64,000 bases of DNA, from contig CANMFO010000003.1 in assembly GCA_947497245.1 (NCBI GenBank), positions 496,001 through 560,000 on the forward strand, written 5' to 3'. Of this stretch, positions 59,236-64,000 are shown piece after piece. This stretch comes from an uncultured Flavobacteriaceae bacterium (lineage in GTDB: Bacteria; Bacteroidota; Bacteroidia; Flavobacteriales; Flavobacteriaceae). A program made the translations under genes and the position numbers. The stretch's first letter is position 1; the number at the start of each line of letters is the position of its first letter. Under the pieces are notes generated by a model. It ran no database searches. It was not told where the DNA came from and saw nothing but the letters and a program-made list of their open reading frames with translations.

Positions 59236-59298
59236 TACGAAAGCACATAAAAATTCGTTAATGTGTTTACAGAAGGATTCGGCAAACCAATGATTTTG

Positions 59299-59306
59299 TA
59301 TTTTTG
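59299..59306 (+). promoter_or_regulatory. -7 element directly before the HYC_CC_PP gene
   Basis: TATTTTTG, an exact TAnnTTTG, ends 5 bases before the ATG at 59312; TTCG about 17 bases upstream is a weak -33. The GTG at 59306 proposed by the ORF track overlaps this element and cannot be a start. A leaderless or near-leaderless messenger is implied. Confidence 0.5.
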
Positions 59307-59311
59307 TGATT

Positions 59312-59722
59312 ATGTACGCTGTTTTTCATAAAATGACCGCGCTTGCCATGGCACTCCTGCTTTTGGCTTCCACGACTTCTTGGAAAGTGGAAAAGCACTA
59401 TTGCATGGGACACTTGGTCGATGTTGCCTTCTTTGCCGAGGCCCTGGGCTGTGGCATGGATTTGACCGGTACGGTCGGGGACGCTTCGGAGGAAATGATG
59501 TCCTGCTGCGATGAAGTGGTCATCGTCATTGATGGTCTGGATGATCTAAAGCTTTCTTTTGATGACATTTCCTTGGATCAGCAACTGTTTTTGGTTGCCT
59601 TTTCCCATGCCTACAGCAATCTTTTTGAAGATTTGGGGGAACATCTGGTTCCCCACGCAAAATATCCGCCCCCTATCTTGGTCCGGGACATCCATGTACT
59701 CGACCAGGTCTTCCTCATATGA
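59312..59722 (+). CDS. HYC_CC_PP-family small exported protein
   Basis: A 136-residue protein named after its three conserved motifs, all seen here: KHYCMGH near residue 30, MSCCDE near 64 and KYPPP near 115. It has an N-terminal hydrophobic signal (MTALAMALLLLASTTSW). Family members occur in Bacteroidota next to TonB-dependent receptors and metal-binding proteins, and the Cys/His motifs suggest metal binding, but no function is proven. It is the first gene of the metal-related locus running to the window end. The ATG at 59312 is preferred to the GTG six bases upstream. Confidence 0.85.
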   Translation: MYAVFHKMTALAMALLLLASTTSWKVEKHYCMGHLVDVAFFAEALGCGMDLTGTVGDASEEMMSCCDEVVIVIDGLDDLKLSFDDISLDQQLFLVAFSHAYSNLFEDLGEHLVPHAKYPPPILVRDIHVLDQVFLI

Positions 59723-59732
59723 TTTTATTTTC

Positions 59733-59834
59733 ATTCCCGCCCGGGCGGGAATCCGTTCATCTTTGGTTCTAAAGTGAACCGGGGATGGTCCGTGTACCCA
59801 AGAGGGTACCCTTTAGATTTCCCGATGTAGGGAA
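59733..59834 (+). repeat. Cluster of palindromes in the leader of the HMA-MauE gene
   Basis: Three inverted repeats lie in 102 bases. First, ATTCCCGCCCGGGCGGGAAT (59733-59752), a perfect 20-base palindrome. Second, a nested pair: TCTAAAG (59768-59774) with CTTTAGA (59811-59817) enclosing GTACCC-aaga-GGGTAC (59794-59809). Third, TTCCC-gatgta-GGGAA (59819-59834). The first resembles short intergenic palindromic units found in many genomes. None has a T tract suited to termination. GTGAAC follows the outer arms twice. The region may be a folded 5' leader that controls the downstream gene, or a repeat insertion. Confidence 0.6.
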
Positions 59835-59858
59835 GTGAACATAAAATTAAAATTCATC

Positions 59859-60584
59859 ATGAAACACACTTATACAATTACCGGGATGCAGTGCGAGACC
59901 TGCGCGGGGTCCATCAGGGAACGATTGTCCGAAATCCCACAGGTCTCCCGGGTCGATGTCGACCTGGAGAGTTCAAGGGCGGAAATTTCCATGCAGGAGC
60001 ATGTCCCCCTACCTATTTTACAAACGGCCTTGCCCAATAAATATACCATTGCCGAAATGAGTGGCCAAAACAACGGCTCCGTACAGGGCGAAGCAACGGA
60101 AAAATCCAAACTACGACAATTGGGCCCACTATTTCTGATATTCTTCTATCTCTTGGCCGCTTGCTTCCTATTGAACTATTCCGATTGGGACAGCAAGGAG
60201 GCCATGCTTGATTTTATGGGGCTCTTCTATATCGTGTTCAGTTTTTTTAAGCTGCTCGACTTAAAGGGTTTTCCCGATAGTTTTCGGATGTACGATCCCT
60301 TGGCAAAGGCCATACCGGCCTACGGATGGGCATATCCGTTCTTGGAGGTGGTACTGGGGCTGCTGTTGTTGATGCGCTTTCAGGTTGCTGTTGCACTTGT
60401 TGCCACGGTCGTGATCTTGGGGATCACCACTTTCGGAGTGACCAAGACCCTACTGGATAAGAAGAGCATCCGCTGCGCCTGTTTGGGAACGGCCCTTAAA
60501 CTTCCCATGACGGAGGCTACCTTTATTGAAAACGCCATTATGCTCGTCATGGCACTGATCATGTTGGCCCAACATTATTTTTAG
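59859..60584 (+). CDS. HMA domain fused to MauE/DoxX-like membrane domain
   Basis: A 241-residue protein in two parts. Residues 1-65 are a heavy-metal-associated domain with the metal-binding loop GMQCETCAGSIRERL. From about 85 on it has four membrane helices of MauE/DoxX type, including DLKGFPDSFRMYDPLAKAIPAYGWAYPFLEVVLGLLLL, and a conserved CACLGTALKLPMTEATFIENAIM segment with a further Cys pair. The HMA domain should lie in the cytoplasm and give or take copper or a similar ion; the membrane part may handle thiol redox or the ion itself. The start at 59859 matches the HMA opening MKHTYTITGM. The TonB receptor gene follows after 11 bases. Confidence 0.85.
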   Translation: MKHTYTITGMQCETCAGSIRERLSEIPQVSRVDVDLESSRAEISMQEHVPLPILQTALPNKYTIAEMSGQNNGSVQGEATEKSKLRQLGPLFLIFFYLLAACFLLNYSDWDSKEAMLDFMGLFYIVFSFFKLLDLKGFPDSFRMYDPLAKAIPAYGWAYPFLEVVLGLLLLMRFQVAVALVATVVILGITTFGVTKTLLDKKSIRCACLGTALKLPMTEATFIENAIMLVMALIMLAQHYF

Positions 60585-60595
60585 AAAAGGAAAGG

Positions 60596-62836
60596 ATGAA
60601 AAAGTATACAATAATTGCCCAAATGGTACTATTGCCACTACTTTCCTTTTCACAGGAAAAGGTGGAGGGGATGGTCATGGAGGCGAATAGCACAAACAAA
60701 CATATTGGCCTGGCCGGCGCGAACGTGTATTGGATGGATTCCCAAATCGGGACCGTGACGAACGAAGAAGGATTGTTCAGCATTCCCTATTCGACGGAAT
60801 ACGATAAACTGATCATTAGTTTTGTGGGATTTCAGTCGGACACTTTGGAGGTCAACGGCCCCAAAATGCTGCACCACAGCCTGAAACCTTCCAATGAACT
60901 GGATGAAGTGGTCGTGGAGAAAAGACGGGACGCCGTCCAAAAGGCCTATTTCAGCTCGCGGAACGTCATTACGGTGAACAGCGCGGAACTTTTAAAGGCG
61001 GCCTGTTGCAATCTCTCGGAAAGTTTTGAGACCAACCCTGCCATCGATGTCAATTTTTCGGATGCCCTTACCGGTACCAAGCAAATTCAAATGTTGGGCC
61101 TTACCAGCCCGTATTTGCTCATCACCCAGGAAAATATCCCCATGGTACGCGGGGCTTCCCAAGCTTATGGATTGACCTTTACCCCCGGTACTTGGGTGGA
61201 GAGTATCCAAATCACCAAGGGAGCCGGGAGCGTGGTCAACGGATATGAGAGCATTTCCGGACAGATCAATACCGAACTGGTAAAGCCCTTGACCGATAAG
61301 ACGCTCTTTGTCAACGGATATGCCAATAGAAATGGTCGGTTGGAACTGAACACCCATTTCAACCGAAAGCTGACGGACAAACTTAGTACGGGACTTTACA
61401 TCCACGGAAACCGCAGGGACGCCAAGGAGGAAAGGAACGATGACGGTTTTTTGGATGCCCCTTTGGCGAATCAAATCAATATTATGAACCGTTGGCAGTA
61501 CCAAAACCCTGAATCGGGATGGGTAAGCTTTGTCAATGTGCGTTTTCTGAACGATGAAAAACAGGTGGGCCAAAGCAATTTTGATCCCACCCTTGATAGG
61601 TTGACCACCAATAGCTGGGGAAGCGAGATAGCCACCCGTAGGTTCGATTCCTCTGTCAAACTGGGGTATGTGTTTCCGGAAATGCCCTTTCAGAGCTTTG
61701 GATTTCAAGCGTCGTACAGCAATCACAAACAGGATTCCTACTACGGATTTAACCGATATGACATAGACCACCAAAGTGTGTATTCCAATCTTATTTTCAA
61801 TTCGATCATCGGAAATACCCAAAACAAGTTCAAAACGGGTATAACCCTGGCGCATGATGGCTATAAAGAAGGGGTCAATGCGATGGATTATGGGAGGACC
61901 GACAATTCTTTGGGGGCTTTTTTTGAGTATAGCTACGACGATTTGGAAAAAGTGAGCCTCACGGCCGGCCTGCGGGTGGACACGCACAATCGCTTGGGCA
62001 CTTTTATGACCCCAAGATTGCACATACGTTATTCCCCTTGGGAAAGAACGAGCCTTAGGGGCTCTTTGGGCCGGGGAAGGCGCGCGGCCAACATTTTTGC
62101 CGAGAACCAACAACTTTTCGGATCTTCCAGGGAAATTCTTTTGTCCGATGCGGGCGGACCGATATATGGCCTGGAACCAGAGGATGCCTGGAACTATGGG
62201 CTCAGCTTTTTGCAGGGATTCACACTTTTTGAAAGGCCGGGAAATGTAACGGTGGATTTTTATAGGACCGATTTTAAGAACCAGATCGTAGTGGATTGGG
62301 AGACCCCCGGGGCAGTGGCCTTCTACAATTTGGACGGACAAAGCTTTGCCAACAGCTTCCAATTGGAGGTGAACCATGAGATTCTGCAAAATTTGGAGCT
62401 TCGAACGGCCTATAAATTTTACGATGTCCGCACCGATTTCAAAAAGGGCCGGTTGCAAAAGCCATTGCAGGCAAAGCATCGCTTCTTTGCCAACTTGGGA
62501 TACGAAACAAAGATTCGGGAGAATGGCGGTCAATGGCGTTTCGATTATACCCTACATACCTTAGGGCGGCAACGCCTGCCCGATACCTCGACCAATCCGG
62601 AGGCATTTCAATTGCCCCGGAACTCCCCTTCCTATAGTCTGATGAACGCCCAGGTGACCAAGGTTTTCTCCAAGGCTGTTGAAGTATACGTGGGTGGGGA
62701 AAATTTGACTAATTTTACACAAAACAGCCCCGTTTTGGCATCGGAAGACCCCTTTGGTCCGTATTTTGATACCAGTATCGTATACGCCCCGATCATGGGC
62801 AGGATGTTTTATGGCGGATTTAGATATAAAATGTAA
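60596..62836 (+). CDS. TonB-dependent receptor of a metal-related subgroup
   Basis: A 746-residue outer-membrane receptor. After the signal (LLPLLSFSQ) comes a carboxypeptidase-regulatory-like beta domain (about 20-100), then the plug (about 105-225) and a 22-strand barrel ending GRMFYGGFRYKM. The plug carries an unusual Cys pair, LLKAACCNLSESFETNPAIDV, known to me from receptors beside HMA and HYC_CC_PP genes. It imports a scarce ligand, most likely a metal ion or chelate, using energy from TonB. It lies 11 bases after the HMA-MauE gene and 14 bases before the secreted HMA gene, so they form an operon. Ligand unknown; copper is a guess. Confidence 0.9.
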   Translation: MKKYTIIAQMVLLPLLSFSQEKVEGMVMEANSTNKHIGLAGANVYWMDSQIGTVTNEEGLFSIPYSTEYDKLIISFVGFQSDTLEVNGPKMLHHSLKPSNELDEVVVEKRRDAVQKAYFSSRNVITVNSAELLKAACCNLSESFETNPAIDVNFSDALTGTKQIQMLGLTSPYLLITQENIPMVRGASQAYGLTFTPGTWVESIQITKGAGSVVNGYESISGQINTELVKPLTDKTLFVNGYANRNGRLELNTHFNRKLTDKLSTGLYIHGNRRDAKEERNDDGFLDAPLANQINIMNRWQYQNPESGWVSFVNVRFLNDEKQVGQSNFDPTLDRLTTNSWGSEIATRRFDSSVKLGYVFPEMPFQSFGFQASYSNHKQDSYYGFNRYDIDHQSVYSNLIFNSIIGNTQNKFKTGITLAHDGYKEGVNAMDYGRTDNSLGAFFEYSYDDLEKVSLTAGLRVDTHNRLGTFMTPRLHIRYSPWERTSLRGSLGRGRRAANIFAENQQLFGSSREILLSDAGGPIYGLEPEDAWNYGLSFLQGFTLFERPGNVTVDFYRTDFKNQIVVDWETPGAVAFYNLDGQSFANSFQLEVNHEILQNLELRTAYKFYDVRTDFKKGRLQKPLQAKHRFFANLGYETKIRENGGQWRFDYTLHTLGRQRLPDTSTNPEAFQLPRNSPSYSLMNAQVTKVFSKAVEVYVGGENLTNFTQNSPVLASEDPFGPYFDTSIVYAPIMGRMFYGGFRYKM

Positions 62837-62850
62837 ACCACTAAAATAAG

Positions 62851-63210
62851 ATGATGAAAAGAACAATGTTGGCACTGACCCTTTTATTGTGTTCCACGGT
62901 GATTTTTGCCCAGGAAAAGAATAAGAAAATGAATTTTGAGGTAGATGGCAAATGCGAAATGTGCAAGAAGCGCATAGAAAAAGCGGCCTTGGGCGTACCC
63001 GGGGTGAAATATGCCCTATGGGACATTCCCACGCACCAGCTGTCGCTGATCGTTGATGAAAGAAAAACAGATCCCATGAAGATAAAGACGGCTTTAGTGA
63101 CCGTGGGACACGATACCAAGGAACTGAAAGCCTCCGATGAGGCATATGCCAGTGTGCACCCCTGTTGTAAGTATCGGGAAGACGATACCGACGATAGCGA
63201 AAAGCACTAG
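62851..63210 (+). CDS. Secreted heavy-metal-associated (HMA) domain protein
   Basis: A 119-residue exported protein: signal ending STVIFAQ, then an HMA domain. The metal loop is VDGKCEMCKKRIEKAAL (CxxC) and the fold continues GVPGVKYALWDIPTHQLSLIVDE. An extra C-terminal HPCCKYR motif and a His at the end add potential metal ligands. It would bind copper or a related ion in the periplasm and may pass it between the TonB receptor and the inner-membrane HMA-MauE protein. A second ATG at 62854 is equally possible. A terminator follows at 63231, so this gene closes the operon. Confidence 0.88.
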   Translation: MMKRTMLALTLLLCSTVIFAQEKNKKMNFEVDGKCEMCKKRIEKAALGVPGVKYALWDIPTHQLSLIVDERKTDPMKIKTALVTVGHDTKELKASDEAYASVHPCCKYREDDTDDSEKH

Positions 63211-63230
63211 GGCAGGTCCCAAGAGTTTTA

Positions 63231-63263
63231 AACCCGCTTCCATGTTTGGATGCGGGTTTTTTT
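63231..63263 (+). terminator. Terminator of the metal locus operon
   Basis: AACCCGC and GCGGGTT form a 7-base stem with inner pairs TCCA/TGGA and are followed by seven T residues. It lies 21 bases after the secreted HMA gene and ends that transcript; the PepSY gene downstream must have its own promoter. Confidence 0.9.
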
Positions 63264-63360
63264 ATGGTGATAGATATACCAAGAGTCTTTAACTTGCGAT
63301 TTCTATTAGCAATAACCCTATATGGTCGATGCGGACCTTTAGGGACAATTCAGATGACCA

Positions 63361-64000
63361 ATGGTAAAAATTAAAACCGCTCTGAAAATTAGGAGGGCCC
63401 ATCGATATCTCGGACTTTTCCTGGGCATTCAGTTCGTGCTGTGGACCGCAAGTGGACTTTACTTCAGTTGGACGGATATCGATGAAATCCATGGAGATCA
63501 ATTTCGGAATACGGAAGCAATGCCAATGTCCTTTCAGGATTTGACCATTCCCCTGTTGGATGGCAAGGCGGGAATTACTTCCCTGGAGTTAAGGGAAATT
63601 GCAGGGGAACCTTATTACTGGATCAACGGATCTCAAATGGTGCATGCCCAAAGCGGGGTGCCCAAAAAGGGAATTACTGAAATGGAAGCCCTGGAGATTG
63701 CGCAAAGGAACGTATTGCCCGGACTGAAGGTGCAGGATGTACAGCGTATAGAAAAAGTTGGAAAGCACCACGAATACAGGGGCAGGTCCTTACCGGTCTA
63801 TGCCATTTCGTATGCATCGCCCGAAAACATCAAGGCCTATGTTTCGGCCACCGATGGTTCCTTCCAGACCCTGAGGCATCGCGACTGGCGGTGGTTCGAT
63901 TTTCTATGGATGACCCATACCATGGACTACCAGGGGAGAGACGATTTCAACACCACGGTCTTGCGCGCGTTTTCCCTTTTGGGACTGCTGACCGTTTTAA
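63361..64000 (+). CDS. PepSY-domain membrane protein (partial, cut by window end)
   Basis: The frame from ATG at 63361 stays open to the last base, giving 213 residues of a longer protein; the ORF track omits it because it has no stop. It opens MVKIKTALKIRRAHRYLGLFLGIQFVLWTASGLYFSW, a membrane helix typical of PepSY-associated TM proteins. A periplasmic part follows with PepSY-like repeats (GITEMEALEIAQRNVLPG, then PVYAISYASPENIKAYVSATDG) and RHRDWRWFDFLWMTHTMDY. Near the end a second helix starts. Such proteins often act as iron- or flavin-linked reductases near siderophore or metal receptors, which suits the location after the TonB receptor operon. The C-terminal domain, which would decide this, is missing. 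Confidence 0.82.
   Translation, partial: MVKIKTALKIRRAHRYLGLFLGIQFVLWTASGLYFSWTDIDEIHGDQFRNTEAMPMSFQDLTIPLLDGKAGITSLELREIAGEPYYWINGSQMVHAQSGVPKKGITEMEALEIAQRNVLPGLKVQDVQRIEKVGKHHEYRGRSLPVYAISYASPENIKAYVSATDGSFQTLRHRDWRWFDFLWMTHTMDYQGRDDFNTTVLRAFSLLGLLTVL

Follow-up and report, generated by a model that had tools for sequence, protein, structure and literature searches.

How copper crosses the outer membrane of Gram-negative bacteria is little understood, and OprC and CrtA are the main examples. OprC, a copper TonB receptor of Pseudomonas, carries a Cys-containing copper site of the form CxxxM-HxM (PMC8610252). In Bordetella, the copper TonB-dependent transporter (TBDT) CrtA is paired with the PepSY_TM protein CrpH (PMC12914433, PMC13038864) and supplies heme-copper oxidases (PMC12914433). 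CrtA displays no conserved Cys or Met, and its PepSY partner is conserved at >75% (PMC12914433). BZARG_1494 of Bizionia argentinensis, a putative OprC-like TBDT reported to carry CxxxM-HxM, has been listed alongside CcoG and NosL units (PMC11213822).

Here we describe a trio of genes, encoding an HYC_CC_PP protein, a TonB receptor and a secreted HMA protein, that stays together across Bacteroidia and is joined in the present locus by a copper-chaperone-like protein of the inner membrane. The set appears to represent a so far undescribed form of envelope copper handling. No description of the trio was found in the open-access literature, and the name HYC_CC_PP was not found in any paper of the open-access literature searched. 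If the reading is true, about two-thirds of Bacteroidia would have a further, widespread route of copper entry, built on a conserved single-copy receptor with a Cys pair and two constant partners, and the HYC_CC_PP family and the HMA-fused MauE proteins would gain a first testable role.

The locus lies in the window, the 64,000-nucleotide stretch of DNA that was analysed (contig 3, 496001-560000, of a 5.25 Mb Bacteroidia genome), and the nearest matches of its receptor belong to Flavobacteriaceae. An ORF and profile check of the window located all five genes of the initial annotation, each in place and on the + strand: HYC_CC_PP, an HMA-MauE fusion with CACLG, a receptor with AACCN, a secreted HMA protein with HPCCKYR, and a PepSY protein. 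The features are as follows.

59294..59306, + strand: promoter-like -7 element TTTTGTATTTTTG, read from the sequence directly upstream of the HYC gene
59306..59722, + strand: HYC_CC_PP protein (NCBIfam NF047658, E 1.9e-29), predicted exported, with conserved C33, C49, C67-C68 and PP122-123
59733..59752, no strand assigned: ATTCCCGCCCGGGCGGGAAT, a perfect palindrome of 20 bases in the gap from HYC to the fusion
59859..60584, + strand: HMA-MauE fusion (PF00403, E 1.6e-9; PF07291, E 3.6e-17) with CACLG
60596..62836, + strand: TonB receptor with plug, barrel and CarbopepD_reg_2 domains; AACCN is residues 135-139
61004..61009, + strand: codons of the plug vicinal pair C137-C138, conserved in 62/62 receptors
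62851..63210, + strand: secreted HMA protein (PF00403, 24.9 bits against a cut-off of 24.8) with C-terminal HPCCKYR
63361..64000, + strand, continuing past the window to L008 7057: PepSY-like membrane protein (PF03929, E 6.9e-6, below the curated cut-off)

Only 11 bp separate the fusion from the receptor and 14 bp the receptor from the secreted HMA gene, with 136 bp between the HYC end and the fusion start and 150 bp between the secreted HMA gene and the PepSY start. The fusion ORF was listed as 59835-60584, with ATG 59859 as the likely start. For HYC, translation probably begins at ATG 59312 or 59333, because the GTG at 59306 overlaps the flavobacterial -7 element TTTTGTATTTTTG. The pattern TGTAnnTTTG stands directly upstream of HYC in 33/74 loci against 1.6 expected; a dyad search upstream of the 74 HYC genes found no palindromic operator and returned mainly the general promoter element. 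Palindrome ATTCCCGCCCGGGCGGGAAT, present as a single copy in the window against 0.01 expected, may be a terminator, an attenuator or a repeat element. Just after the window (L008 7209-9250) come the gene for a protein that has TCCSGG at its predicted mature N-terminus (QTCCSGGVPLSNNLGLP) and a DUF3179 gene; groEL, on the opposite strand, is next. Both of the first two genes recur after a trio with fusion in three close relatives (L179, L198 and L199), and the pair appears to be a lineage-specific extension with another vicinal CC.

What is conserved is a set of three genes, for HYC_CC_PP, the receptor and secreted HMA, and not all five. A search of 395 Bacteroidia genomes (threshold E <= 1e-80) retrieved the receptor from 261, nearly always in one copy; HYC was detected in 243/395. 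In a class-wide sample of 62 receptor loci, picked for family diversity and with neighbours defined as lying within 4 kb, HYC accompanied the receptor in 58, the secreted HMA protein in 53 and both in 51, while unsupervised clustering placed no other neighbour in more than seven of the 62; therefore, the trio is the unit. A second sample, comprising the 80 nearest receptors, all from the window's own relatives and thus biased to close relatives, contained the secreted HMA gene beside the receptor in 78 loci. Gene order within the trio is variable, either HYC-receptor-HMA or HYC-HMA-receptor.

The initial annotation had envisaged a continuous five-gene relay for a thiophilic metal and named co-occurrence of the genes as its check. 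The PepSY, TCCSGG and DUF3179 genes are not conserved with the receptor class-wide, and the relay was dropped as a conserved unit; what survives of it is the trio and a likely envelope system for a copper-type thiophilic metal, with predicted HMA domains at both faces of the inner membrane. The PepSY gene itself is accessory and outside the trio core. It is near the receptor in only 1/62 class-wide and 1/80 nearest-receptor loci, and chelate reduction therefore falls outside the core. The 231 aa protein also scores short of a PepSY_TM assignment (PF03929, 26.5 bits against a cut-off of 28.8). Relatives of it occur at L044 15823-16539, in a copper-efflux island, and at L195 9342-10061, beside another trio with fusion.

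Each of the three trio proteins carries a vicinal Cys pair, the signature of the system. The receptor, assigned as TonB-dependent by PF07715 and PF00593 above cut-off, retains plug residues C137-C138, the sole two Cys of the window receptor, in all 62 sequences, along with an invariant H270. In the secreted HMA protein, C35 and C38 of the CxxC are conserved at 100% and C-terminal C105 and C106 at 98%, and in HYC, C33, C49 and C67-C68 reach 98-100%. The motifs singled out in the window thus stand above chance. A CC pair was found in 5.6% of other ORFs within the fetched loci, and the CCNLxESF DNA pattern occurs once in the whole genome. Some Bacteroidales-type loci encode an HMA protein without the C-terminal CC. 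The HYC_CC_PP assignment is clear (102.8 bits against the NF047658 cut-off of 28, with HYC, CC and PP motifs present); searches of Pfam gave no significant match to HYC (best E 0.18) and none at 0.01 to the second HYC copy, and its profile retrieved only insignificant matches among solved structures (E at least 0.11). From signal-peptide-like starts read by eye, HYC and the secreted HMA protein are predicted to be exported to the periplasm, and HYC is proposed to be a periplasmic metal-thiol chaperone.

The fusion joins an HMA domain without signal peptide to about five transmembrane helices (by hydropathy) and belongs to the MauE family (PF07291, 63.3 bits against a cut-off of 27). The best solved-structure matches of its HMA domain are those of a copper ATPase and CopZ, and hydropathy together with the positive-inside rule suggests that this domain and CACLG both face the cytoplasm. 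Alignment of 83 homologues (mean pairwise identity 45%) revealed CACLG in 83/83, together with invariant M116xxxM120, M228, C206, C208, E163, E224 and K131; the columns of M231 and M217 are conserved in 82/83 and 81/83, respectively. MauE-only controls, including one from the source genome, keep CxCxG and lack MxxxM at that place. CxCxG is a general MauE-family trait, with MxxxM and the further transmembrane Met specific to the HMA-fused clade. Because the Met path is fusion-specific and CACLG family-wide, metal conduction is favoured over electron exchange, and the path suggests conduction of Cu(I). Redox exchange at CACLG as the special feature of the fusion is weakened by the presence of the motif in MauE-only proteins.

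Class-wide, the fusion and the receptor are largely found apart, which the initial annotation had listed as refuting its relay: a receptor adjoins the fusion in 6/60 loci of a class-wide fusion sample (the window, L043, L094, L096, L098 and L099), and a fusion is near the receptor in 2/62 receptor loci. Yet the two are together in 24/80 nearest-receptor loci (Flavobacteriaceae) and are also paired in two other lineages, with the fusion placed between HYC and the receptor, after the secreted HMA gene or, once, before HYC. Well supported branches in a tree of the 83 fusions force at least four changes of trio label, which argues that the partnership was gained or lost several times; such recurrent pairing suggests a functional link. 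Outside the trio, fusion loci frequently contain CusA/B/C, CopA or an AraC-type regulator with an N-terminal CxxC, an AraC-type gene being present in 32/53. Six Flavobacteriaceae loci instead carry a CPC-containing CopA-type ATPase between HYC and the receptor, directly upstream of the receptor; its N-terminal HMA domain resembles that of the fusion, and the ATPase is related to the source genome's CopA, which lies in the second HYC island and passes the copper subfamily TIGR01511.

Copper is the best guess for the cargo, from gene context and domains: HYC is linked to CusA, the CopA passes TIGR01511, and the fusion HMA domain resembles those of a copper ATPase and CopZ. HYC lies within 1.5 kb of a CusA/CzcA-type pump in 16/22 loci (L303-L324), and the source genome's own CusA passes TIGR00914; its second CusA copy (L325) has no adjoining HYC. 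CusA is within 4 kb of the receptor in only 1/62 class-wide loci. The second HYC copy of the source genome lies amid CusA, CusC, CopA, CusB and an AraC-type regulator with CxxC (L009 5535-18415), in an interval that also holds ArsR, MerT-HMA and a CDF transporter with HMA and is a heavy-metal island. The AraC-type regulator (L009 9891-10448, HTH_18) has an N-terminal CxxC stretch that resembles a degenerate HMA domain, with no Pfam HMA match. Its relatives precede the fusion in many loci and possibly form a metal-sensing AraC family.

We put at even chances that the locus encodes a TonB system for copper handling in which periplasmic thiol proteins act as chaperones. In such a system, the receptor would bring copper, complexed or as ions, through the outer membrane, and the plug Cys pair would hand copper to the exported thiol proteins, secreted HMA and HYC_CC_PP. 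HYC_CC_PP would act in a CusF-like manner and could also feed a CusA pump. The fusion, or CopA in sister loci, would move Cu(I) between cytoplasm and periplasm, in the fusion along the Met-lined path, with the cytoplasmic HMA domain and the CACLG thiols as docking sites on the cytoplasmic side. Copper as cargo, export of HYC and secreted HMA, the order of hand-over, the fusion as transporter and the direction of transport are points that we infer. Counted in favour of the system are the conserved trio, the single-copy receptor, the Cys and Met conservation, the repeated linkage to copper efflux, the recurrent joining of fusion and trio, the 11 and 14 bp gene spacing and the precedents of OprC and CrtA as copper TBDTs; counted against it is the receptor's presence in COX1-negative genomes, including ones that may need little copper. 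A bolder version, in which the receptor stands for a further, Cys-pair class of copper TonB receptors with two dedicated exported thiol partners and the fusion for a new class of Cu(I) membrane transporters, with a CTR1-like MxxxM path and unrelated to P-type ATPases, is held tentatively and falls somewhat short of even chances.

Copper uptake with periplasmic buffering is favoured, and a role in tolerance is its main rival. In a tolerance module, the receptor would import or recycle a copper-buffering thiol or chelator, and HYC and secreted HMA would feed Cus or CopA, with net outward flux. The adjoining CopA and Cus genes are exporters, so such a setting is possible: HYC-CusA linkage is repeated, CopA stands between HYC and the receptor in the six loci and after the trio in L259, and the trio adjoins CusA/B in L144 and an AraC-type regulator in L145 and L264. 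Retention of the receptor in COX1-negative genomes points the same way. However, CusA is a 4 kb neighbour of just one of the 62 receptors and the trio is mostly without efflux genes, import is the usual task of TonB receptors, and near-ubiquity as a single copy suits a housekeeping need better than resistance; we consider the tolerance reading unlikely. Pumps of the CusA/CzcA type, like HMA domains and Cys pairs, are used for Ag, Hg, Zn or Cd as well, and the copper genes could be bystanders to a different thiophilic cargo, either one of these metals, as such or in a complex, or a metal-thiol compound. HMA and CxxC are not metal-specific, and the source genome's second HYC locus includes a MerT-like HMA protein, an ArsR regulator and a CDF transporter, but the linked P1B ATPase is of copper type and the Met-rich membrane path of the fusion is typical of Cu(I) or Ag(I), which leaves another metal distinctly improbable.

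Supply of heme-copper oxidases, as by Bordetella CrtA/CrpH, is the reading to which we give the least credence. The window does combine a TBDT with PepSY, as CrtA operons often do with a PepSY_TM gene (PMC12914433), and COX1 is nearly universal (376/395 Bacteroidia genomes). Against this, the receptor occurs in 13/19 COX1-negative and 248/376 COX1-positive genomes and thus has no association with COX1, PepSY is not a conserved neighbour, and CrtA is without conserved Cys, unlike the invariant pair here. Because 13/19 COX1-negative genomes retain the receptor, oxidase supply is not its general role. Ten COX1-negative receptor loci all keep the CC motif; an HMA gene adjoins the receptor in nine of them, and a Cys-rich HYC-like neighbour was detectable in five. 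In two COX1-negative loci (L260 in G339, L265 in G297), receptor and HMA are present and HYC went undetected; it may be lost or too divergent there. Since some of the receptor-bearing COX1-negative genomes may need little copper, nutritional import is not obviously useful in them, which raises the question of what the receptor is used for there.

Among described systems, OprC shares TonB dependence with the trio receptor and, on the favoured reading, a Cys-containing copper site; the trio receptor differs in that its Cys are vicinal and two partner genes are conserved with it. Membership of the OprC group was rejected, as CxxxM occurs in 0/62 plugs and both HxM and CxxxM are absent from the window receptor. 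For BZARG_1494, the likeness is that a copper TBDT has been proposed in a related bacterium, although the trio receptor is without CxxxM-HxM. An invariant His, the idea of a copper TBDT and the PepSY-type gene nearby in the window recall CrtA, but the trio receptor does not track heme-copper oxidases. The invariant CC and a PepSY gene beside only 1/62 receptors exclude it from the CrtA group. CusF of CusCFBA binds metal, is small and exported, and has its gene next to that of the CusA pump. HYC resembles it in being small, predicted exported and encoded beside CusA, and differs as a Cys-based family that additionally partners a TonB receptor. The fusion is reminiscent of MerT/MerP and MerTP, where HMA is joined to a small membrane protein passing a thiophilic metal, whereas its own membrane part is of the MauE family with a Met path; assignment as a MerTP mercuric fusion (NF033556) failed at 31.1 bits against a cut-off of 180, with the HMA part only matched. 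With the MauE/BT_3928 family, the fusion shares the membrane domain and CxCxG, and it stands apart from the MauE-only controls in its HMA domain and its invariant MxxxM.
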